This document shows, one piece after another, positions 30,075 to 64,000 of a stretch of DNA of 64,000 nucleotides (its first letter is position 1; each line of letters begins with the position of its first letter). The DNA lies in assembly GCF_014062315.1 (NCBI RefSeq), contig NZ_JACGLT010000001.1, positions 62,001 to 126,000 on the forward strand. The letters are read 5' to 3'. Below the pieces are notes generated by a model. The model was not told the origin of the DNA. It saw only the letters and a program-made list of their open reading frames with translations, and searched no databases. The translations under genes and the position numbers were made by a program. This stretch comes from Gelidibacter maritimus (GTDB taxonomy: Bacteria > Bacteroidota > Bacteroidia > Flavobacteriales > Flavobacteriaceae).

Positions 30075-31940
30075 TTATCTGCGCGATTGTCTTGGTCTTG
30101 AAAAACTGGCATCATCTGATTTTTCATTCATCTTTGCACGTCTTTCACGTCTGTTAGGACCTGAGCTATCTGCTGAACGTCTTGGTCTTGAGTCGTCAGA
30201 ACTCCTTCTTCCGGAAGATTTAAAATCACTACCAGAACGTCTTTCGCCACGTCGTTTAAAGTCGCCACCTGATCGTCTGCCGCCAGAGCGTCTTTTATTT
30301 CTGCTTGTGCCTGCACCTTGATCCTGACTGACCTCAACATTTACAAATCGGCCATTGTGCTTAAAGTCATTGAAAAAAGCCAATACTTTCTCCTGCAATC
30401 CTTTTTCGGTGTTGAAGAATGAGAAACTGTCCTTAACATCTACTTTAAAGACATCATCTCGGCCAAGATCAAGAACCTCCTTTAAGAAATCCTTTAAGCT
30501 CATCCAATCATAGCCGTCTTTTTTACCAACATTGATAAAGTAACGGGAAGAATCACCATTGCTACTAAAACCACGACCAAAGTCTCTTTCAGAACCGCTA
30601 TCACTTCCGCGGGAATCAGGCACCGATAAGCTTTTTGACTTATTGTAATAATTAAAGAATCGGGTAAATTCGACCGAGAAGAATTTTTGGATCAATTCAT
30701 CTTTAGAGGTGTTCTCAAACAATCCGTTAATACTAGTAAGGTACTTTTCAATCTCAGGATTGATTTCCGTATTATGGATTTTATTTGCCAAAGACATAAG
30801 TTGTACTTCGCAAATCTCCATACCATCCGGAATGTCTTTTTTGACAAAGCTCTTATTGATGATACGCTCAATACTTTTTATTTTGCGCAATTCACTTTTT
30901 GAGACAATAACAATTGAGACTCCCGTTTTACCTGCACGTCCTGTTCTACCTGAACGGTGGGTGTAGGTTTCAATTTCATCTGGCAATTGGTAATTGATAA
31001 CATGTGTAATATTGTCCACATCAATTCCACGTGCTGCTACATCAGTAGCCACCAACATCTGGATCTGGTTCTTACGGAACGAATTCATGACCAGGTCACG
31101 TTGGTTCTGACTCAAATCGCCGTGCAAGGCGCCTGCGCTATAACCATCTTCTATCAGCTGCTCCGCCACTTTTTGGGTGTCGCGTTTGGTGCGACAGAAG
31201 ATAACTGAAAATATATCCGGATTAGCGTCGGCCAAACGTTTCAAGGCTTGGTAACGGTCACGAGCGTTTACAAGGTAATACTCATGCGATACTTGATCAG
31301 TACTTTCATTTTTTTTCCCAACCGTAATTTCAACTGGCGAATGCATGAATTTTTTCGCAATATTTGAAACTTCTTTTGGCATGGTTGCCGAAAATAACCA
31401 TGTGTTTTTATCCTCTGGAGAATGGGAAAGAATATCAGTAATATCCTCGTAAAAGCCCATGTTCAACATTTCATCAGCCTCGTCAAGTACAGCGTATTCA
31501 ATTTTTGAAATGTCAACCATTCTACGGTTGATCATATCTTTCATACGTCCGGGCGTAGCAACAATAATTTGTGCGCCTCTTTTTACTTCTCTTGCCTGTT
31601 CGCTAATACTGGCACCGCCATATATAGCCGCAACGTTAAAGCCTTTACAGTATTTGCCGTAGTTTTTTAATTCGTTGGTAATTTGTAAACATAGCTCACG
31701 AGTAGGAGAGAGGATCAAGCCTTGGGTAGTTCTGCTATCTGTGTTAATTTTTTGCAACATAGGAAACCCAAAGGCCGCAGTTTTACCTGTTCCTGTTTGT
31801 GCTAAAGCCACTAAATCAGTGTCTTTTTCTAATAAAATTGGAATTGCTTTTGCTTGGACATCACTTGGCGATATAAAACCAATATCAGTAATAGCCCGTA
31901 ATAGGTCATCATTAAGACCTAAATCTTGGAATGTGTTCAT
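30075..31940 (-). CDS. DEAD-box RNA helicase with DbpA-type C-terminal domain
   Basis: The 621-residue protein has a full helicase core: Q motif, Walker A AQTGTGKTA, motif II VLDEADEML, motif III FSATMP, and motif VI HRSGRTGRAGKTG (residues ~1-370). A folded domain at about 440-540 (YFINVGKKDGYDWMSLKDFL; KDSFSFFNTE) fits the DbpA/CsdA RNA-binding RRM. The last ~80 residues are an Arg/Ser/Gly-rich tail (RRSGGRRSGGDFKRRG). This layout is that of CsdA/DeaD-type helicases acting in ribosome assembly and cold growth. A leader of about 105 bases may precede it, as is common for such genes. Confidence 0.95.
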   Translation of the reverse strand: MNTFQDLGLNDDLLRAITDIGFISPSDVQAKAIPILLEKDTDLVALAQTGTGKTAAFGFPMLQKINTDSRTTQGLILSPTRELCLQITNELKNYGKYCKGFNVAAIYGGASISEQAREVKRGAQIIVATPGRMKDMINRRMVDISKIEYAVLDEADEMLNMGFYEDITDILSHSPEDKNTWLFSATMPKEVSNIAKKFMHSPVEITVGKKNESTDQVSHEYYLVNARDRYQALKRLADANPDIFSVIFCRTKRDTQKVAEQLIEDGYSAGALHGDLSQNQRDLVMNSFRKNQIQMLVATDVAARGIDVDNITHVINYQLPDEIETYTHRSGRTGRAGKTGVSIVIVSKSELRKIKSIERIINKSFVKKDIPDGMEICEVQLMSLANKIHNTEINPEIEKYLTSINGLFENTSKDELIQKFFSVEFTRFFNYYNKSKSLSVPDSRGSDSGSERDFGRGFSSNGDSSRYFINVGKKDGYDWMSLKDFLKEVLDLGRDDVFKVDVKDSFSFFNTEKGLQEKVLAFFNDFKHNGRFVNVEVSQDQGAGTSRNKRRSGGRRSGGDFKRRGERRSGSDFKSSGRRSSDDSRPRRSADSSGPNRRERRAKMNEKSDDASFSRPRQSRR

Positions 31941-50048: not shown

Positions 50049-50386
50049 TTCTTTTTATTTTTAAAATATGTGTTTCTTATTTTCTCCGCTTTGTCGATTT
50101 CTTTTTTATCCACTTTGCTTGTTTTCTTAATAATTCCGTGAGTTGCAAAAACTAACGTCTCGGTCTTATCATCCTTGTCCCAAAATGCTAAAAGACGGTA
50201 TTGAACTCCAGAATATAAAGTTCTGAATTCCCAAATATTATCAGTCAGTTTTTTAAAGAATTTTGGATCAGATTGTTGTTCGGCTCTTCTTATATTTTGA
50301 AATATCTTTTTCCTTGCTTTTAGGTTTTGCTTTTCTATAAATTCAAAAGCTTCTTCGAGCAATTTCGTTTCAAATCGTTTTATCAT
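50045..50386 (-). CDS. RelE/HigB-like type II toxin (phage Gp49-like)
   Basis: The 113-residue basic protein fits the HigB/Gp49-like branch of the RelE superfamily (FIEKQNLKARKKIFQNIRRA; IWEFRTLYSGVQYRLLAFWD; LVFATHGIIKKTSKVDKKEI). These toxins cut mRNA on the ribosome. The W-E-F-R-x-x-Y core segment and the HGIIKKTSK region are conserved. It is intact, and its antitoxin gene overlaps its stop codon by 4 bp. A 12-bp inverted repeat lies 53 bp upstream and may be involved in autoregulation. Confidence 0.9.
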   Translation of the reverse strand: MIKRFETKLLEEAFEFIEKQNLKARKKIFQNIRRAEQQSDPKFFKKLTDNIWEFRTLYSGVQYRLLAFWDKDDKTETLVFATHGIIKKTSKVDKKEIDKAEKIRNTYFKNKKK

Positions 50387-55972: not shown

Positions 55973-56022
55973 ATTTTCCGATTTTAATTAAAAGCTCCAT
56001 GTCGGGCTTTAAATGTCTGTTT

Positions 56023-56080
56023 GGGCGCATTCTGCATCTGTCAATATGAGTTTGAGACAGTAGGAATGCGCCCGATGCAG
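56023..56080 (+). promoter_or_regulatory. Hairpin with alternative pairing upstream of the TonB receptor gene
   Basis: GGGCGCATTC (56023-56032) pairs exactly with GAATGCGCCC (56064-56073), with an inner CTGTC/GACAG stem. A second possible stem CTGCATC (56032-56038)/GATGCAG (56074-56080) overlaps the first. No T-run follows, so it is not a plain terminator. It could be a regulatory leader; no known riboswitch pattern is recognised. Confidence 0.55.
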
Positions 56081-56118
56081 ATAAAATAATTAGGAGTTTT
56101 AAATGGCTCCTCCTTTCT

Positions 56119-58509
56119 ATGCTTAGGAATTTTATACCCTTTTTTTTAATGTGTTTTACTGTGTTTTCTATGGCACAGAATTCCGGAACACTGCAAGGGA
56201 AGCTGATCAACTTACTTGATGACCAGATAGAAAATGTTGAAATTCGTTTGGTCGAAACCAATGCGCGCACGCTGACCAACAACAAGGGGGAATTTGTATT
56301 TAAGAATCTACCTTCCGGTTTCTATAATATTTATCCCGTGTACGATGGCTTTCAGTTTGACATCGAAAACGTCTTAGTCAGTGCAGGTGAAGTGCAGGAA
56401 GTGACGCTCTACATCAAAATGATGACTTATAATCTTGATGAGATAAAACTCCGAACGCTTAGCATCAGCGAAAAGTTAAAGAGCAGCGCCATTAAGGCTA
56501 ACATTATCTCTGTGGAAGCCAATACAAGGCGTGCCAATTCTGTGGAAGATTTGGTCGATAAGAGTCCAGGGGTGAAAATACGGAATGTTGGCGGTCTTGG
56601 ATCAGCCAGTAATATTATTGTTGGTGGCTTTACTGGCAATGCCGTCAAGTTTTTGTATGATGATATTCCCATCGATTATTTAGGTTCTAATTTTGGCTTG
56701 ACAAAAGTACCTACCAATGCTATTAGCCGTGTGGAAATCTACAAAGGTGTTTTGCCTACCAAGATAGGCGTGGATGCTTTGGGCAGTGCCATCAATATTG
56801 TCCCTAAATCCAGTAAAAAAACATCCGGCACGGTGTCTTATGAAACTGGATCTTACAATACGCATATCGCAACGGCCAATGCAAACATAAAATTAAACGA
56901 TCACCTTTTTCTTGGTGTCAACAGTTTTTATAACTATTCTAAAAACAATTATAAGGTTGATAATCTTCCTTACAAAGACCCCAATAGCGGTCAAGTGGCC
57001 TATATTAGAGAGCGCCTATTCCACAATGGGTTTAATCAGCATTCTTTAGAGTTTTCCTTAGAAGCGCGACAATTATCCTGGGCCGAATCCTTTGAATTTA
57101 AAGTGAACTCCTATGGGCTGAAAAGAGATATTCAAAACGATCCGTTTTCCAGAGCCAGACCTTTTGGAGAAGTTTACCGACAGGAACGTGGAAACTTCAT
57201 TCCATCACTGAAATACAAGAACCATTTTTTCGAAAACAAATTGAGCATCAACCAATTTTTGGTTTATAGTACAATTGATTTTGAAGTTTTTGACCAAGGG
57301 AAAAATGTGTATTATGACTGGAAGGGCGTGGCACATTCCACAAATTCGGCTTCTGAAATGGGGAATATGCTCCTTGAGAACGGTTATATGCATACTAATT
57401 TTGAGCAATTCACTTCCCGAACCAATCTAAATTATTTGATTAGTAATTATTTTCAAATAGAGAACAATACGGTTTATAGTAATTATAAGCGAAAATCCAA
57501 TCTTGGCGATCAGAATCTGAATGGAACTACCTATAATAAGCTCATTACCAACTTTGCTTTGAACGCCCAATTTTTTGATAGGCGATTGGAATCTAACACA
57601 CAATTCAAATTTTTATTTGGCAACTTTACCGGTCGCTACAATGCGTCTGATAATCCGTTGGAAGAGCATATTGTGGATAAGGAAGTGGTCAATAGAGGTT
57701 TGAGCTTCGCGCAGGCCCTAAAATATAATATCAACGAGAAAAGTTATGTTCGGGTGTCTTACGAAAATACGTTCAGACTGCCGGAGCAGCAAGAATTGTT
57801 CGGCGACAATAATTTCATTGTGGCCAATTATGAATTGACCCCAGAGGAAAGTAAAAATATAAATTTGGGATATACCTATGCGGCTGAAGCTTTTGGATTT
57901 GAAATAAATACCTACTATCGCGATACCCAGAACCTGATTCGTTTAAAAGATTTAAATCAATATCAAGCCATCAATCTCAATCTTGATAATGTGAAAGGCT
58001 TGGGCGTAGAGCTACAAGCAAATTATGAGCCTGTAGAAAAGTTGAAGCTCTCGGGGAACTTAACTTGGAATGACTTCCGCTTACAATCATCTAGAGATAA
58101 ATACCTAAACAATCAGCATTTTAAAGATGCCCGGATTGCTAATATGCCTTTTTATTATGGCAATGTCAGTGCTTCGTACAATATCAAAGAGTTGTTAAAA
58201 CTATCTACAGATCTCTCCTTTTTTTGGGATTATTCTTATGTGCATCAGTATTATCTCGACTATATTGAAAAACAATTTGAGCCAGATGGGTTTTTGGGTC
58301 TTTTTGGAAATTCAAAAGTCAATACCAGCCGTATTATACCAAACCAGCACACTCATAACATCGGGTTTATTTATGTTCGTGATTTTACCAAACAAAGCAT
58401 ATCCTTTAGTGCCGAGCTTAAAAATGTCCTTAACGAGAACATCTATAACGAATTTAAAATGCAAAGCCCAGGCAGACATTTTAGAATGAAAATAACCTAT
58501 AGCTTTTAA
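56119..58509 (+). CDS. TonB-dependent outer-membrane receptor
   Basis: The 796-residue protein has a signal peptide (LRNFIPFFLMCFTVFSMAQ), a carboxypeptidase-regulatory-like domain at about 22-110, a plug domain (SVEDLVDKSPGVKIRNVGGL; FLYDDIPIDYLGSNF; VEIYKGVLPTKIGVDALGSA) and a barrel ending in the aromatic residue F (MKITYSF). It lacks the SusC-type domain and size, so it resembles siderophore or metal receptors. The next gene, 4 bp downstream, encodes a lipoprotein of DUF4374 type; that pair is common in Bacteroidota for iron-related uptake. Its ligand is not shown by the sequence. Confidence 0.92.
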   Translation: MLRNFIPFFLMCFTVFSMAQNSGTLQGKLINLLDDQIENVEIRLVETNARTLTNNKGEFVFKNLPSGFYNIYPVYDGFQFDIENVLVSAGEVQEVTLYIKMMTYNLDEIKLRTLSISEKLKSSAIKANIISVEANTRRANSVEDLVDKSPGVKIRNVGGLGSASNIIVGGFTGNAVKFLYDDIPIDYLGSNFGLTKVPTNAISRVEIYKGVLPTKIGVDALGSAINIVPKSSKKTSGTVSYETGSYNTHIATANANIKLNDHLFLGVNSFYNYSKNNYKVDNLPYKDPNSGQVAYIRERLFHNGFNQHSLEFSLEARQLSWAESFEFKVNSYGLKRDIQNDPFSRARPFGEVYRQERGNFIPSLKYKNHFFENKLSINQFLVYSTIDFEVFDQGKNVYYDWKGVAHSTNSASEMGNMLLENGYMHTNFEQFTSRTNLNYLISNYFQIENNTVYSNYKRKSNLGDQNLNGTTYNKLITNFALNAQFFDRRLESNTQFKFLFGNFTGRYNASDNPLEEHIVDKEVVNRGLSFAQALKYNINEKSYVRVSYENTFRLPEQQELFGDNNFIVANYELTPEESKNINLGYTYAAEAFGFEINTYYRDTQNLIRLKDLNQYQAINLNLDNVKGLGVELQANYEPVEKLKLSGNLTWNDFRLQSSRDKYLNNQHFKDARIANMPFYYGNVSASYNIKELLKLSTDLSFFWDYSYVHQYYLDYIEKQFEPDGFLGLFGNSKVNTSRIIPNQHTHNIGFIYVRDFTKQSISFSAELKNVLNENIYNEFKMQSPGRHFRMKITYSF

Positions 58510-58513
58510 GCGT

Positions 58514-59842
58514 ATGAAGTCTTCAATTATATATCACTTTTGTGTTGGTGCCCTGTTGTTCGGATTGATGTCCTGTGAGGTTAAAAATCTGGATGATGAG
58601 AATAAAAACCCAAAGTTGGATTATACTTCCAATAATTATGTTTTAGCTACCGAGGATGCTTCCACAGCCGATATCACCCGATTTTTTAATTTTGATTTGG
58701 AGGGATTGGAAGCCGATAAGGAATATGATCTGATTCAAGACAATCAAATTTTTGTCAATTCAGATCCGTCAACGTCATCAGGACATCAGTTCTTCAAGAA
58801 TTTCATCTTTAGTATGGCCAAGGATAAAAGAGGCTATTCGTCCACACCTGGGCTCTTTCGACTCAGCCTGAATACGTCCGACCAAGTGTTTATTGATAGC
58901 GAAATCTATATTGGCAAGGGCAACCTCTTTCCGTCTCGTAAGTTGGCTTTGGTAAACGATAGCTTGGGCTTTTATTATAACGAAGACAGTGGCGGACAAA
59001 CCATTCAGTCTTTCAATCCATTGACGATGCAACTGGGAGACGCATTAGATTTACGCCCTTATATTAAAGCATTTCGACCTGATGTGAGCTTTGAGGATGA
59101 CTTTGGGAATAACTTGGTAAGAACGGGATCGTTGGTGTTGGATTATAAAGACGATAAACTTTATGTGAGTGTTGTGTTTTTGGAACAAGCTAATTTCAAT
59201 CTGATTTCTGAAGACGAAGAAAATTTCTATTTGGCGGTTATTGATATACCGAGTGTTAGCTTCGATAAAATTATTCAGTATCACGGCGCTAAAACAGTTG
59301 GTTTTTTTGTTTCAGAAAATAATCCGACGACTAAAGATGAGGACGGAAATCTATACTTCTGTTCTTGGGGCTGGAATCAATTTAATGAGCATACACCTTC
59401 AAAAATCTTTAGAATCAAAGCTGGTGAAACAGAATTTGATGAGGAATGGGAGATTGATATTGAATCGTTGTTTGGAGAGGGTAGGATCGCGCAATCGATA
59501 ATGTCGTATAATAATAAACTATATCTGCACATATCCGAGGATCCTTATTTATTTGAGTCCAGTGAAGAGGTCGAAACTCGGAATGGCTTAAAACTTTCCT
59601 ATTATGAATTTGATACTGCTTCCCCCGAAAATTACGTCAAATTGGAAGTGCCAGCATCCAATCCAGCCTCGCGGATGAATGTGTTCAATATTGTGGACGA
59701 CCGACTTTTTATGGTGGTGCCCAATGCCATTGCGCCTAATTTCAATGGGGTCTATGCTCTTGATCGTGAAGGAGCACTGAAAAAGGAACTACAAATTTCA
59801 AATAAATACCGACCAACGCGATTTTATAAACTTGTGAAATAA
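58514..59842 (+). CDS. DUF4374-like beta-propeller lipoprotein
   Basis: The 442-residue protein has a lipobox (LLFGLMSC, Cys21). It resembles DUF4374, a propeller-type lipoprotein found with TonB receptors, with repeated strand motifs (YVLATEDASTADITRFFNF; LVLDYKDDKLYVSVVFLEQ; VDDRLFMVVPNAIA). The gene is 4 bp from the receptor gene, so the two are translated together. By analogy it would capture the ligand at the cell surface. The family call is from memory and moderately sure; the function is inferred. Confidence 0.65.
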   Translation: MKSSIIYHFCVGALLFGLMSCEVKNLDDENKNPKLDYTSNNYVLATEDASTADITRFFNFDLEGLEADKEYDLIQDNQIFVNSDPSTSSGHQFFKNFIFSMAKDKRGYSSTPGLFRLSLNTSDQVFIDSEIYIGKGNLFPSRKLALVNDSLGFYYNEDSGGQTIQSFNPLTMQLGDALDLRPYIKAFRPDVSFEDDFGNNLVRTGSLVLDYKDDKLYVSVVFLEQANFNLISEDEENFYLAVIDIPSVSFDKIIQYHGAKTVGFFVSENNPTTKDEDGNLYFCSWGWNQFNEHTPSKIFRIKAGETEFDEEWEIDIESLFGEGRIAQSIMSYNNKLYLHISEDPYLFESSEEVETRNGLKLSYYEFDTASPENYVKLEVPASNPASRMNVFNIVDDRLFMVVPNAIAPNFNGVYALDREGALKKELQISNKYRPTRFYKLVK

Positions 59843-59852
59843 TGAGTATGCC

Positions 59853-60060
59853 GCCCTTTCAGGGCTATATGGTTAATTGGTTTATTCCATTAGCATAGGT
59901 CTACGCCCAATGCTAATATATGACGCTCTTTCAGAGCTCAAAAGCTCATAATTTTCGCCATTATAATTCAGCGAACATGATGTAACCCTAAAAGGGCGCC
60001 ACTTCATAATTCGTGACGCTAGTCTTGAGTTATGAATGTTTGGGGAATAACCTGTATGCC
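59853..60060. repeat. Tandem unit 1 (208 bp)
   Basis: First full unit. It contains ATTAGCAT...ATGCTAAT inverted arms near 59890-59916 in addition to the REP palindromes. One base is missing after its third palindrome compared with the other units. Confidence 0.85.
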
Positions 60061-60269
60061 ACCCTTTTAGGGCTAAATGGTAAATTGGTTTATTCCATTA
60101 GCATAGGTCTACGCCTAATGCTAATGTATGGCGCTCTTTCAGAGCTCATAAAGCTCATAATTTTCGTCATTATAATTCAGAGAACATGATGTAACCCTGA
60201 AAGGGCGCCACTTCAAAATTCGTGACGCTAGTCTTGAGTTATGAATGTTTGGAGAATAATGTGTATGTC
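60061..60269. repeat. Tandem unit 2 (209 bp)
   Basis: Its first palindrome has changed to ACCCT-TTT-AGGGC while the other two match unit 3. Flanks are otherwise nearly identical to units 1 and 3. Confidence 0.85.
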
Positions 60270-60478
60270 GCCCTTTCAGGGCTATTTGGTGAATTGGTGT
60301 TTTTTATTAGCATAGGCCTACGCACTATGCTAATGTATGGCGCTCTTTCAGAGCTCATGAAGCTCATAATTTTCGCCATTATAATTCAGAGAACATGATG
60401 TAACCCTGAAAGGGCGCCACTTCATAATTCGTGACGCCAGTCTTGAGTTATGAATGTCTGGGGAATAATGTGTATGTC
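60270..60478. repeat. Tandem unit 3 (209 bp)
   Basis: Full unit, with first palindrome exact (60270-60282), second at 60342 and third at 60403. Confidence 0.85.
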
Positions 60479-60612
60479 GCCCTTTCAGGGCTGTTTGGTG
60501 AATTGGTGTTTTTCATTAGCCCAATGCTAATATATGGCGCTCTTTCAGAGCTCATAAAGCTCATAATTTTCGTCATTATATTTCAGAGATCAGAATGTAG
60601 CCCTGAAAGGGC
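60479..60612. repeat. Tandem unit 4, shortened, followed by two inverted palindromes
   Basis: The 12 bp that separate the ATTAGCAT and ATGCTAAT arms in the other units are missing. After 60612 the array ends in two more inverted copies (60675, 60743). Between them is an exact 11-bp inverted repeat CATAACTCAAG / CTTGAGTTATG near 60695-60724, of which units 1-3 carry a decayed version. Confidence 0.85.
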
Positions 60613-60802
60613 GTCATGTCATAACTCAAGGCGGTAGACTTGAGAAGTGAGAATGTATATCTATAAGGGATACAGCCCTGAAAGGGCGCCATAGCATAAC
60701 TCAAGGCGACAGTCTTGAGTTATGAATGTCATGAGAAATTAAGCCCTGAAAGGGCGAGATACTTGACTAATACTAAGTTTTTGTTTACTTAGACATTCTT
60801 CT

Positions 60803-61255
60803 CTAATCCCAGATATAGCGGTCATCATATTCCATCTGGTTGCTCTCGAGGAATGCACGATATTCGTCCTGAAAAGTTTTGCTTCTGTGATGCTCTTTCT
60901 GGTTGGCGATATACTGAATGACCACATCAACCTCTGAAGCTTTTAAAGAAAATGCGCCATAACCATTCTGCCAATAAAATTGTCGATACGCATCCCCTTT
61001 CGTTTTTATCCATTTTGAGGAATTAGCTTTCAATTTCGACATAAGCGTTGCCAACGTTATATTTTTAGATAATAAGCACAGAATATGGACGTGATCTTGA
61101 TAACCGCCGACCTTTATAGCCGGGCACCCTAAATTGTTGCAGGTGCCACCGAGATATTTATAGAGTTCATCTTCGATGGATTCATCGATTAATTTTTGGC
61201 GGTACTTGGTGCTGAATACAATGTGCAGATAATTTTTGACTAATGATTGTGACAT
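60803..61255 (-). CDS. HUH/Y1 single-strand transposase, REP-associated (RAYT) type
   Basis: The 150-residue protein is a single Y1_Tnp domain. The HUH metal motif is His55-Val-His57 in YQDHVHILCLL and the catalytic tyrosine is Tyr115 in VIQYIANQKEHH. The N-terminal VKNYLHIVFSTKYRQ and the terminal DDRYIWD match the IS200/RAYT group common in Bacteroidota. The gene is intact and lies between REP-like palindromes (60743-60755 and 61319-61331). No TnpB, accessory gene or classical terminal repeats are present. That layout fits a domesticated RAYT better than a mobile IS. Confidence 0.92.
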   Translation of the reverse strand: MSQSLVKNYLHIVFSTKYRQKLIDESIEDELYKYLGGTCNNLGCPAIKVGGYQDHVHILCLLSKNITLATLMSKLKANSSKWIKTKGDAYRQFYWQNGYGAFSLKASEVDVVIQYIANQKEHHRSKTFQDEYRAFLESNQMEYDDRYIWD

Positions 61256-61286
61256 AGGTTTCGTTTTTTATAGTCCTATTTGAGCT

Positions 61287-61331
61287 ACCCAGGACTGTCA
61301 CCCTGGGGATAAATATGTCGCCCTTTCAGGG
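61287..61331 (-). repeat. Palindromes on the promoter side of the RAYT gene
   Basis: CCCAGG (61287-61292) pairs with CCTGGG (61301-61306) across 8 bases, and a forward REP palindrome GCCCTTTCAGGGC lies at 61319-61331 with TGTC on its 5' side. The array and this copy thus flank the RAYT gene. Confidence 0.85.
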
Positions 61332-61402
61332 CTGATTATGCCACTAACTTACGATATTTATTGCATGTTAATCACATGGTGGTAGATGTGTAAACTTGTC
61401 AG

Positions 61403-61410
61403 TATCTTTG
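61403..61410 (+). promoter_or_regulatory. Candidate -7 promoter box of the serine hydrolase gene
   Basis: TATCTTTG matches TAnnTTTG exactly and lies 17 bp before the ATG. No TTG at the usual distance. Confidence 0.45.
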
Positions 61411-61427
61411 CTTAAAATCAATTTATT

Positions 61428-62987
61428 ATGACTTCTATTTCTTTTGAGCGCTATCAGATAGTGTTATTCGTTTTTGTAAGTTTATTTTTTACCTCAATTG
61501 TGGCCCAAGAATCGTTGCCTAAGAATTTCGATGCGTGGGTGGAATCAAGCAGACAGGATTGGAAAATTCCTGGTATGGCAGTGGGTATTGTAAAAGATGG
61601 TGAAGTGGTTTATGCTAAAGGGTTTGGAGAAAAACGTTTGGGAAGTGGGGAGAAGGTTGATGCCAATACCATTTTCAGTATTGCCTCGGTCAGTAAGAAC
61701 ATGACCGCTGCAGCCCTTGGTATTTTGGTAGATGAAGGAAAAATAGATTGGGATGATAAAATCACAAAACATATGCCTTGGTTTCAGTTAAAAGATTCAT
61801 GGGTGACCCAGGAAATCACCATTCGCGATGCTTTGATCCATCGGGTGGGATTGGGACGAAAATTAGGTAACAGACTTCAGTTTATGACCAATAGCTCACG
61901 AGACAGCGTTCTGTATCAGATGCGCTATATGGAACTGGAAAAACCGTTCCGTTCATCTTTTGTTTACAATAATGTCATGTACTCCTTAGCAGGGCAGATG
62001 ATTGAATATGCTGATGGACGCACTTGGGACGACTTTTTAAAAGAACGCTTATTTGAGCCACTTGAAATGAATTCTGCAAGTACAAGCATCACTCAGATAA
62101 AATCTAATGATAATCAAGCCTATCCACATCAAGAGATTAGAGGAAAAGTAGTGCCGATTTCAAGAAGAAATTGGGATAATGCCGGGCCTGCCGGTGGTGT
62201 CAACGCATCAATAAACGACCTGAATAAATGGATGTTGATGCAATTGGGAGTTGCTGGCGAGTATAAAGGGAAAACCATTATTAGTGAGAAACAAATGAAT
62301 GAGATCCACAAACCACAGATGGCCCGTCCATCAGCAGATGCCATGGCAGCACAGAGCAGCTATGGTTTTGGCTGGACCATTACCGATTATAATGGAAAAC
62401 GTGTATTAACCCACGGTGGTGCAACCGATGGTTTCAATACGGCCATGTATCTCATGCCGGAATTGGAATTGGGAATCATTGTGGTAGGTAACAATTTCAA
62501 TAGCTTGGGCAATGCTGTTGCTTATCGGGTGATGGATGCCTATTTAGGAAAAAGTGATGTCGATTGGAATGAGCGATATTTACAAGGCTATAAAAGGTCA
62601 TTTGCACGAGCTGCAGAAGCCCGAGAAAAAATTCATCAAGCTCAAATATTAAAAACAAAGCCGAGCTTAGACTTGGATGCCTATATAGGCCTATACCAAT
62701 CTGAGGGATACGGACAAGTAGAAGTTAAAAAAGAGGGTGAGGAATTGGTATTACATTTTTGGGACACCGATGGTTTGGAAGCTAAACTTGAGCATTGGCA
62801 TTACGACACCTTTAGGGCAGTTTGGAAAAACCCTGCGCAACGTGAAGAATTTATGCAATTCCATTTAGGCAAAGATGGCAAGGTAGAAGCTTTGGATTTC
62901 GAGTTTTCCTTACGCCCATTATCCTTGCAGGTAGGCGCGTACCCCTCCAATTACACGCATACGGAGCGATTTATTAAGCAGAAATAA
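61428..62987 (+). CDS. Serine hydrolase, class C beta-lactamase/penicillin-binding fold with DUF3471 tail
   Basis: The 519-residue protein has a signal peptide (LFVFVSLFFTSIVAQ), a catalytic SxxK motif (SVSK, Ser87-Lys90), the YxN motif (FVYNNVMYSLAG near 182) and the HGG triad (LTHGGATDGF near 339), the set of class C beta-lactamase-like esterases and peptidases. The last ~110 residues (LDAYIGLYQSEGYGQVEVKK) fit DUF3471, which often follows such domains. True beta-lactamase activity is not implied. It is monocistronic. Confidence 0.9.
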   Translation: MTSISFERYQIVLFVFVSLFFTSIVAQESLPKNFDAWVESSRQDWKIPGMAVGIVKDGEVVYAKGFGEKRLGSGEKVDANTIFSIASVSKNMTAAALGILVDEGKIDWDDKITKHMPWFQLKDSWVTQEITIRDALIHRVGLGRKLGNRLQFMTNSSRDSVLYQMRYMELEKPFRSSFVYNNVMYSLAGQMIEYADGRTWDDFLKERLFEPLEMNSASTSITQIKSNDNQAYPHQEIRGKVVPISRRNWDNAGPAGGVNASINDLNKWMLMQLGVAGEYKGKTIISEKQMNEIHKPQMARPSADAMAAQSSYGFGWTITDYNGKRVLTHGGATDGFNTAMYLMPELELGIIVVGNNFNSLGNAVAYRVMDAYLGKSDVDWNERYLQGYKRSFARAAEAREKIHQAQILKTKPSLDLDAYIGLYQSEGYGQVEVKKEGEELVLHFWDTDGLEAKLEHWHYDTFRAVWKNPAQREEFMQFHLGKDGKVEALDFEFSLRPLSLQVGAYPSNYTHTERFIKQK

Positions 62988-62991
62988 CGAG

Positions 62992-63285
62992 TCAGAAGAA
63001 CTTAAACTTGATCTCTTTGGGCATAAAATGAACCCCTTTAAAATCGGTAATGGCTTTAATTTGATGCCTGACTTCGGGTGGTACAATAATCGTATCGCCT
63101 TGTTTTAAAATTTGTTCTTCATTGTGCATTTTAAAGATACATTCGCCTTCACGGACAAACACAATGGATTCGAGATTGGCAAGATGTTCTGGCAATAGTT
63201 GACCGGCGTCGGCCTGCATTTGTTTGGCGACCAATACGCTGCCTTCTGCTAATGTTTTTACCTTTGGTGGCGTTACTTTTTCCAT
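62992..63285 (-). CDS. Cupin domain protein
   Basis: The 97-residue protein is a single cupin barrel: SIVFVREGECIFKMHNEEQI is the first motif, DTIIVPPEVRHQIKAITDFK the second, with metal-binding positions reduced to one histidine and two acidic residues. It is soluble, without a signal. Such small cupins are often regulators or isomerases, but no substrate is indicated. It converges on the serine hydrolase gene 4 bp away. Confidence 0.85.
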   Translation of the reverse strand: MEKVTPPKVKTLAEGSVLVAKQMQADAGQLLPEHLANLESIVFVREGECIFKMHNEEQILKQGDTIIVPPEVRHQIKAITDFKGVHFMPKEIKFKFF

Positions 63286-63355
63286 GATTTTATAGCTTTA
63301 AAGTTATAGATGTCGGTTGTGATCACCCTAGTGGTTCTCCACTTCTACAATTTAA

Positions 63356-64000
63356 TCAATCATTGTCAGGTTTCAAAATATCTTGCACTATGCTTAATGA
63401 GCCATCAATGTTAGCAGGGATCTCAAAACCTAGAATGTCACAGATTAACGGATAAATATCAATGTTTTGAAATGAAGGTATGGTATGTCCAGTTTTAAAG
63501 GCAGGACCATTGGCGTAAAATATCCCATGCATATCTTTGTCGTTGCTGTCAAAGCCATGCACACCAATAGTTTTAATGTTGTTTTGGTTCAAAAGTGCTA
63601 TATTTTTTGCATTAGAAAAATAATAGCCAACATCTGGTATCAATTGGATGGCACCCCAATCCTTATTTTTTGGTGTATATTCAAATCCTGGAGTGTCTTC
63701 CGTTTTATAGACCTTAAAATGATCTTCTTTTTGCTTTAGGTAGTCGAGTACAACCTCAGTTTCAACGTCTTTTTTCGGATGAATGTTGACCATTGACCCA
63801 TTATCGATGGCAAGAAACAAATCGTTATTTTGAATGCGTTCAATCGGTATCAGTTTATCTGTAGATTGCGCTGCCATTCCATGATCTGAGACAATGATGA
63901 TGTTTATAGGCAAACCGGATGCTTTCAGGCCAGTGAGTAAGACGCCTAAATTCTTATCCAAACTATGGAGTGTTTTTTGAATTTCTGCTTCGTTATTGGG
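63356..64000 (-). CDS. Alkaline-phosphatase-superfamily phosphodiesterase, C-terminal part (cut by window edge)
   Basis: The open frame runs from the stop at 63356 to the window edge. There is no start in the window; an internal TTG at 63961 is not a likely start because the frame continues. The protein has the metal site segment INIIIVSDHGMAAQS, then GFEYTPKNKDWGAIQ and the phosphodiesterase segment GVHGFDSNDKDMHGIFYANG with ending NIDIYPLICDILG. This is the C-terminal half of nucleotide pyrophosphatase/ectophosphodiesterase (type I NPP) proteins, which use two zinc ions. The missing N-terminal half holds the nucleophile. Confidence 0.88.
   Translation of the reverse strand, partial: PNNEAEIQKTLHSLDKNLGVLLTGLKASGLPINIIIVSDHGMAAQSTDKLIPIERIQNNDLFLAIDNGSMVNIHPKKDVETEVVLDYLKQKEDHFKVYKTEDTPGFEYTPKNKDWGAIQLIPDVGYYFSNAKNIALLNQNNIKTIGVHGFDSNDKDMHGIFYANGPAFKTGHTIPSFQNIDIYPLICDILGFEIPANIDGSLSIVQDILKPDND

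Follow-up and report, generated by a model that had tools for sequence, protein, structure and literature searches.

A putative REP/RAYT-like system of double-hairpin units around a subclass 1.2 HUH enzyme in Gelidibacter and other Bacteroidota

A gene for a 150-aa Y1 HUH transposase-like protein lies on the minus strand (60803-61255) of a 64 kb stretch of Gelidibacter maritimus DNA, the whole of which is called the window here, and the gene is flanked on both sides by short palindromes. The question raised by this locus is whether the protein moves its own gene, moves the palindromes, or is a mere neighbour of hairpins with another function. The original prediction was a Flavobacterial REP/RAYT system. 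The system-level part of this reading is supported, in that enzyme and palindromes occur together in relatives, that copies are scattered in several genomes and that the arrangement is REPtron-like, but the protein is not of the RAYT class and the system is wider than the Flavobacteria, extending across the Bacteroidota.

Palindromes and double-hairpin units at the locus

Fifteen 13-mers with at most two mismatches to GCCCTTTCAGGGC were found in the window and all were located at the enzyme-gene locus, 14 downstream of the gene and one upstream, just as had been described. In 20 base shuffles the mean was 0.2 and the maximum 1, in a count which took only 13-mers starting with GCCC, GCTC, ACCC or GCCT. 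The palindromes are of the GCCCT-TTC-AGGGC type; 11 of the 15 have perfect arms and four have one non-Watson-Crick arm position. Exact GCCCTNNNAGGGC was found in seven (0 in 100 shuffles) and GCTCTTTCAGAGC, with perfect arms, in four. They are mirrored about the gene, which gives the inverted flanks of a REPtron-like arrangement.

The claimed tandem units of ~209 bp were recovered by a repeat finder at 59838-60624 (period 209, 3.8 copies, 89% matches) and this period is the sum of the palindrome spacings 72+61+76, but the gene-proximal downstream palindromes at 60675 and 60743 lie outside the tandem part. Two other short tandem repeats are present in the window, at 30921-30956 (18 bp x 2) and 50073-50129 (25 bp x 2.3). 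A proposed TGNC box 5' of the palindrome is present in 14/15 window copies, with TCTC instead at copy 60743, whereas over 117 TTC-loop hairpins in relatives the guide is ATNNC, the 5' side having A (82%), T (86%), two free bases and C (69%), and the base after the hairpin being T in 85%. The tetranucleotide GT[AG]G was found directly at the palindrome foot in none of the 15 window copies, and GTGG one base off the foot in three of them.

The simple palindrome taken as the unit in the original prediction is only half of a double hairpin. In aligned units a variable hairpin (P2) is followed by some 12 nt with the guide ATNNC at their end, then by the palindrome itself (P1, a 5-bp stem with a 3-nt loop) and then by a T, and the guide and the trailing T of P1 are conserved, each on one side only. 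A P2 scoring at least 12 in the 60 bases before P1 was found at 111 of 198 P1-like sites, compared with 37 of 198 after shuffling of those 60 bases and with 68 of 414 random stretches; the apparent P2 was an adjacent P1 in a few loci. Sixty-five units were selected and 50 of these were aligned. In 10 of 14 pairs both sides had changed with the pairing retained (95 cells, compared with 26 in shuffles), which describes the set and does not prove the pairing, since the aligned units were pre-chosen for it.

A covariance model (R1) was built from aligned double-hairpin units, with G000 (the window's genome), G004 and G007 among the training sources. In the window it found seven strong full-length units (E at most 2.2e-8), all at the locus, three of which were training units. 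From the far end of the array towards the gene, a P1 GCCCTTTCAGGGC at 59853-59865 (+) is followed by a unit at 59893-59938 (+; P1 GCTCTTTCAGAGC at 59925; 61.3 bits, E 3.4e-14), degenerate P1 copies at 59985-59997 (-) and 60061-60073 (+), a unit at 60101-60146 (+; P1 at 60133; 55.1 bits), a degenerate P1 at 60194-60206 (-), a P1 GCCCTTTCAGGGC at 60270-60282 (+), a unit at 60310-60355 (+; P1 at 60342; 58.6 bits), a degenerate P1 at 60403-60415 (-), a P1 GCCCTTTCAGGGC at 60479-60491 (+) and units at 60500-60552 (+; P1 at 60539; 42.6 bits) and 60599-60644 (-; P1 at 60600; 42.3 bits). The first three units were in the training set and each degenerate P1 has one arm position off. Nearer to the gene are a unit at 60674-60719 (-; 38.7 bits) with P2 CATAACTCAAG/CTTGAGTTATG, guide TATGGC and P1 at 60675, and a P1 with guide TATCTC at 60743-60762 (-), which is closest to the stop codon, is without a full P2 and gave a partial match of 21.1 bits. 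The upstream unit at 61288-61333 (+, the strand opposite the gene; 42.3 bits, E 2.5e-9) has P2 CCCAGG/CCTGGG, guide TATGTC and P1 at 61320-61332.

At loci outside the training set, R1 found units beside all 10 genes of the genus of G039 that are at least 49% identical to L073 (L073 itself was in the training set and the G102:C136 gene, 51% identical to it, was left out of the ten) and beside a Persicobacter gene. No R1 units were found beside six more distant homologues (0/6) or beside the IS200/IS605 controls (0/3), namely IS200-like L020 and L031, from one genome, and L253, an IS605 with TnpB. The unit nearest to the gene is mirrored in the 11 non-training loci, L254 being complicated by a weaker R1 match on the other strand that overlaps the mirrored unit and lies 11 bases closer to the gene.

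Class of the enzyme and its retention in Gelidibacter

The window protein matches Pfam Y1_Tnp (E 5.5e-27) and carries the motifs DHVH (54-57), WQ (95-96) and YIANQKEHH (115-123). The HUH motif at 55-57 (H55-V-H57) and Tyr115, both noted earlier, were confirmed, and H55, H57, W95, Q96, Y115, Q119, H122 and H123 are invariant in 21/21 aligned relatives hand-chosen by the analyst, D54 being present in at least 90% of them. In Quentin et al. (2018, PMC6006769), subclass 1.2 of TnpA_Y1 is defined by DH[IV]H, WQ (W[TS] in subclass 1.1) and Y---Q--HH, is placed near the IS200 transposases, occurs chiefly in Cyanobacteria and Bacteroidetes, and has 'no' in the REP column of Table 1. By these published motifs the window protein is a TnpA_Y1 of subclass 1.2 and not a class 2 RAYT, and the likeness extends to the length of ~148-150 aa, the occurrence in Bacteroidetes, the low copy number and the divergence of the copies. 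In the window's genome there are two full-length subclass 1.2 copies, which are 60% identical, together with one partial match and one copy with stops.

The assignment of the enzyme as a RAYT had to be given up: the protein scored 22.6 bits with the NCBIfam RAYT model NF047646, far below the cut-off of 80, and the class 2 motif Y---NP is absent, with the class 1 motif Y---Q (YIANQ) in its place. The NCBIfam IS200 model NF033573 was passed (70.8 compared with a cut-off of 55), which shows membership of the superfamily and not mobility of the gene. A fold search with an AlphaFold2 model (mean pLDDT 88.8) gave IS608 TnpA as the nearest structure and the E. coli RAYT 4er8 at rank 30, the full-length rmsd being high. 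Given the class 1 motifs, the IS200 model and the fold, the name RAYT suits a way of life and not the protein class. TnpB was not found among the gene neighbours tested, which were a TonB receptor, a Pfam-less protein, a PF00144 protein and a cupin. The sole cyanobacterial plasmid match inspected as a candidate for a cyanobacterial subclass 1.2 example was an IS605 with TnpB and was rejected.

The three closest enzymes are those of G. pelagius (G004), G. japonicus (G007) and G. gilvus (G008), 81-91% identical to that of the window, and in all four species the gene and its palindromes are found in one place, next to a PF00144 protein (beta-lactamase family) that is 88-92% identical. Close relatives without the motif in which the same transposase is mobile as an IS200-type element with other ends, named in the original prediction as evidence against it, were not seen. 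The other five Gelidibacter genomes are without a close gene and their best match to the PF00144 neighbour is 34%; two 37-39% homologues of the enzyme are present in the Gelidibacter genome G002. Among the four species dN/dS is 0.05-0.09 at dS 0.6-1.9, a divergence at which hairpin and guide are still recognisable, and P1-like copies number 15, 17 (a contig end cuts the array), 13 and 6. The low dN/dS and the fixed place indicate that the gene is kept by selection, with no sign of recent movement, while the palindrome copy number varies.

Units beside homologous genes and elsewhere in the genomes

Similar palindromes were expected to accompany the enzyme in relatives, and of 48 named related loci 29 had exact GCCCTTTCAGGGC at most 1 kb from the gene (13 on both sides) and 19 had none within that distance, some of the 48 loci being shortened by contig ends. 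At least two copies of one hairpin (5-bp stem and loop) within 700 bp of the gene were present in 43/72 loci, compared with 0/360 dinucleotide shuffles and 0/28 distal windows, and were not found in the remaining 29. The 72 loci are the 48 named ones and further relatives, the duplicates L006-L009 and L017 as well as L032 (no tblastn match) having been left out, and they are not all independent: near-identical pairs, the IS200-like L020 and L031 (scores 0 and 1) and the fragment L034 (score 2) are included. Of the positives, one (L025) consists of a simple CGTA repeat, and the hairpins at L034, L079 and L082 are possibly not cognate ones.

The closest upstream palindrome is on the strand opposite the gene in 22/29 loci and on the gene's strand in 7/29, and the closest downstream palindrome is on the gene's strand in 18/19 loci. 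An upstream P1 stops 11-21 bases short of the start codon in 11/48 loci, which makes translational autoregulation possible. In L039, L041 and L043 (Flavobacteriales MAGs) tight P1 arrays with spacings in multiples of ~24 bases and without P2 lie upstream of the gene, a style that differs from the window array. Beside more distant proteins the stems differ (GTCCC, GCTCC, ACCCC and AGGCC). On a protein tree of 67 rows, 40 of them labelled (L020, L031, L034, L077 and L079 left out, the L025 label uncounted), the stem label required 12 changes compared with a shuffled mean of 14.9 and minimum of 13 (300 shuffles), and the full hairpin label barely follows the tree (15 changes compared with 15.95, minimum 15). 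Loop type was rejected as a tree-following trait (10 changes compared with a shuffled mean of 10.8, minimum 9).

A dispersed REP had been expected in the window's genome. All seven sites of the exact palindrome found there were at the locus (three sites for the reversed control pattern), so that it is not a dispersed REP in this genome; exact genome-wide dispersal is thereby ruled out, and this outcome had been named beforehand as one that would count against the prediction. At L169 (G000:C4:17600-18900) a few degenerate TTC-loop palindromes, with guides resembling ATNNC, lie clustered and are perhaps old dispersed copies. The second full-length subclass 1.2 gene of this genome (G000:C69:150888-151337; L021, L168), 60% identical to the first, has its own GTCCC-TTC-GGGAC unit. 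The P2 of the C69 unit and the units of the window array have the ten bases ATTAGCATAG in common, as though the two systems had traded hairpins; a 30-base P2 pattern designed to connect them matched C69 alone and no window units. An apparent extra copy in G. pelagius (C24) was rejected: it sits at the end of a contig, the sequence before it matches the neighbour gene and the far end of the window array, and it was read as part of the G. pelagius array split by a contig break.

Guide plus P1 was found in 25/31 gene-bearing genomes, picked largely for visible GCCCT hairpins at the gene (24 of the 48 named loci and seven others), with 0/31 for the reversed control and with 1-33 exact sites in each positive genome; among relatives not chosen by visible hairpins it was found in 7/59. 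Mucilaginibacter sp. UBA5151 (G072) has 33 copies and G074 has 12, three adjoining the gene in each case. Copies on contigs other than that of the gene were present in G072, G074, G060, G063, G075 and G041, their gene-less state having been checked for stretches of G072 and G074 alone. Twenty stretches from these two genomes contain P1/P2 mosaics in both orientations, 18 of them have no gene match within the 0.9-1.8 kb fetched, and in 15 every P1 is clear of open frames of at least 120 aa. R1 matches were obtained in 9/16 gene-positive and 3/43 gene-negative relatives (Fisher's Exact Test, p = 1.3e-4, ancestry ignored, G000, G004 and G007 having supplied training units), and two of the three gene-negative relatives had single weak matches. 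A repeated P2-P1 array lies near a contig end in G036 (L171, G036:C56), a genome in which a protein search found no homologue.

Gain and loss of units were followed in 30 genomes of the genus of G039, G039 included, and two orthologous intergenic gaps were found to differ by one or two units between congeners. As a detector of GTCCC units in the congeners R1 was insensitive (7 matches in 40 stretches) and was rejected, and sequence probes were therefore used, with thresholds fixed after the sequences had been seen and passed by 0/200 shuffled windows. In the first gap the unit is missing in 2/11 congeners and several others have degenerate or different hairpins. In the second gap, read in 28 congeners, a unit was placed by both probes in eight; G106 (exact P1 and guide, shorter P2 loop) and G098 (a degenerate unit) were not counted, and no unit was found in the other 18, the stop and start codons almost touching in five. 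Three unit-less congeners (L219, L220 and L221, in G105, G109 and G092) have an unrelated insert of ~270 bases that resembles a small open frame. The second-gap unit is present in 6/8 genomes with a close gene (at least 73% identical to L073) and in 2/20 without (Fisher's Exact Test, p = 0.0018, ancestry ignored), and one of these two, G094, has a 49% homologue. Similarly, GTCCCTTCGGGACT occurs in 8/9 close-gene genomes and 7/21 without (46 sites; p = 0.014, ancestry ignored), where single matches mean little since the reversed control gave 9 sites in 9 genomes. The units in congeners without a close gene indicate that a unit can exist without its enzyme, which speaks against a strict one-to-one link and which loss of the gene would explain. 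In G093, which has one subclass 1.2 gene, IS200-like transposase copies of equal score form two sets (31% and 25% identity to L073) and have the look of a genuine IS expansion.

A REP/RAYT-like reading and its alternatives

To judge from the sequences compared here, the locus probably represents a REP/RAYT-like system with a class 1 HUH enzyme (subclass 1.2) at its core, in which the enzyme would move the units while its own gene stays put. The double-hairpin units are associated with the gene, they are mostly mirrored about it and their stems differ near distant homologues. At orthologous sites, units occur in some congeners of one Flavobacteriales genome and are missing from others, and in Gelidibacter the gene is retained in place under purifying selection.

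The system resembles the class 2 REPtron/RAYT systems of E. coli and Stenotrophomonas in that an HUH-Y1 enzyme is flanked by cognate short palindromes, with apparently gene-less copies elsewhere in some genomes and BIME-like mosaics. It differs from them in the class 1 enzyme, the guide (ATNNC here, GTAG there), the two-hairpin unit, the tandem array, the small number of copies and the lack of exact dispersal in the window's genome. The CGTC-tagged REPs (PMC3733652), the tag of which has a reported TGTC variant, are likewise short palindromes with one tagged end and include Bacteroidetes among their phyla, but they have 8-9 bp stems, 4-5 nt loops and a CCA-like tail and, according to that paper, no transposase dedicated to them, whereas P1 has a paired P2, a 5-bp stem, a 3-nt loop and a T behind it.

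An ordinary IS200/IS605 insertion sequence, the gene of which moves together with its ends and the subterminal hairpins of which were amplified by chance, would agree with the passing of the IS200 model and with IS608 TnpA as the nearest fold. The locus shares the fold, the HUH motif and Tyr, and the hairpin with 5' guide with IS608 and ISDra2 (subclass 1.1). In IS608 the two ends are read from the same strand, and the mostly mirrored hairpins are unlike such ends. The window's genome has no multi-copy near-identical element, its two full-length copies being only 60% identical, the neighbours tested include no TnpB, the gene holds the same place in four species, units without a gene match nearby occur in stretches of two other genomes, and the IS200-like and IS605 control elements are without such units; taken together, these observations make an ordinary insertion sequence unlikely.

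That the palindromes instead act in RNA, as terminator hairpins, mRNA stabilisers or a switch in the 5' leader, or are binding sites for a regulator, with the transposase a mere neighbour, we consider quite unlikely. The upstream P1 copies just before start codons could act in translation, and the 15/20 stretches in which P1 is clear of open frames fit such a role as well, but the palindromes accompany the enzyme family across the phylum and are mostly oriented relative to the gene, the guide and the trailing T are each conserved on a single side, and no Rfam family reached the gathering score in the window at 56000-64000. A secondary RNA role may exist alongside the link to the enzyme. It is very improbable that the array is a relic tandem repeat produced by recombination or slippage and that the enzyme is now otherwise employed, for instance in DNA repair or fork processing after domestication; the lack of exact dispersal in the window's genome and a gene fixed in place under purifying selection would be expected, but hairpin and guide have stayed recognisable in four species at the dS values given above and units have been gained or lost in relatives of another genus.

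In the REP/RAYT-like system that we favour, the protein would most likely bind P1 as a single-stranded hairpin along with the ATNNC guide 5' of it, and P2, at its near-fixed distance, would offer a second contact, perhaps to seat a second subunit or to fix the spacing. By analogy with IS608 and TnpA_REP (PMC8266576), Tyr115 is predicted to cut beside the unit, and P2-guide-P1 units would then be moved or copied to other single-stranded sites by strand transfer. The enzyme gene itself would be immobile and kept by selection, and the 209-bp array could have grown by transposition beside itself or by slippage or recombination between repeats.

On balance we lean towards an independent REP/RAYT-like origin from the IS200-like class 1 branch, with subclass 1.2 as the host-retained enzyme of phylum-wide two-hairpin units that enter intergenic sites, combine into mosaics and in Gelidibacter have built up a tandem array next to the gene. 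No report of palindromes for subclass 1.2 was recognised in the literature searched, outside which most subscription papers lie, and the P1 13-mer did not occur in it. Subclass 1.2 is tabulated without REP in Table 1 of PMC6006769, whereas repeated hairpins flank 43/72 of its members and near relatives here. The near-fixed spacing of P2 and P1 and the differing stems provide ready single-strand substrates, and the filled and empty sites of the congeners offer a measure of unit gain and loss. If the reading is true, the REP/RAYT way of life would exist on both main branches of the Y1 enzymes, the Bacteroidota would have their own version of it, and it could be asked what makes a transposase quit moving itself and move short hairpins instead.
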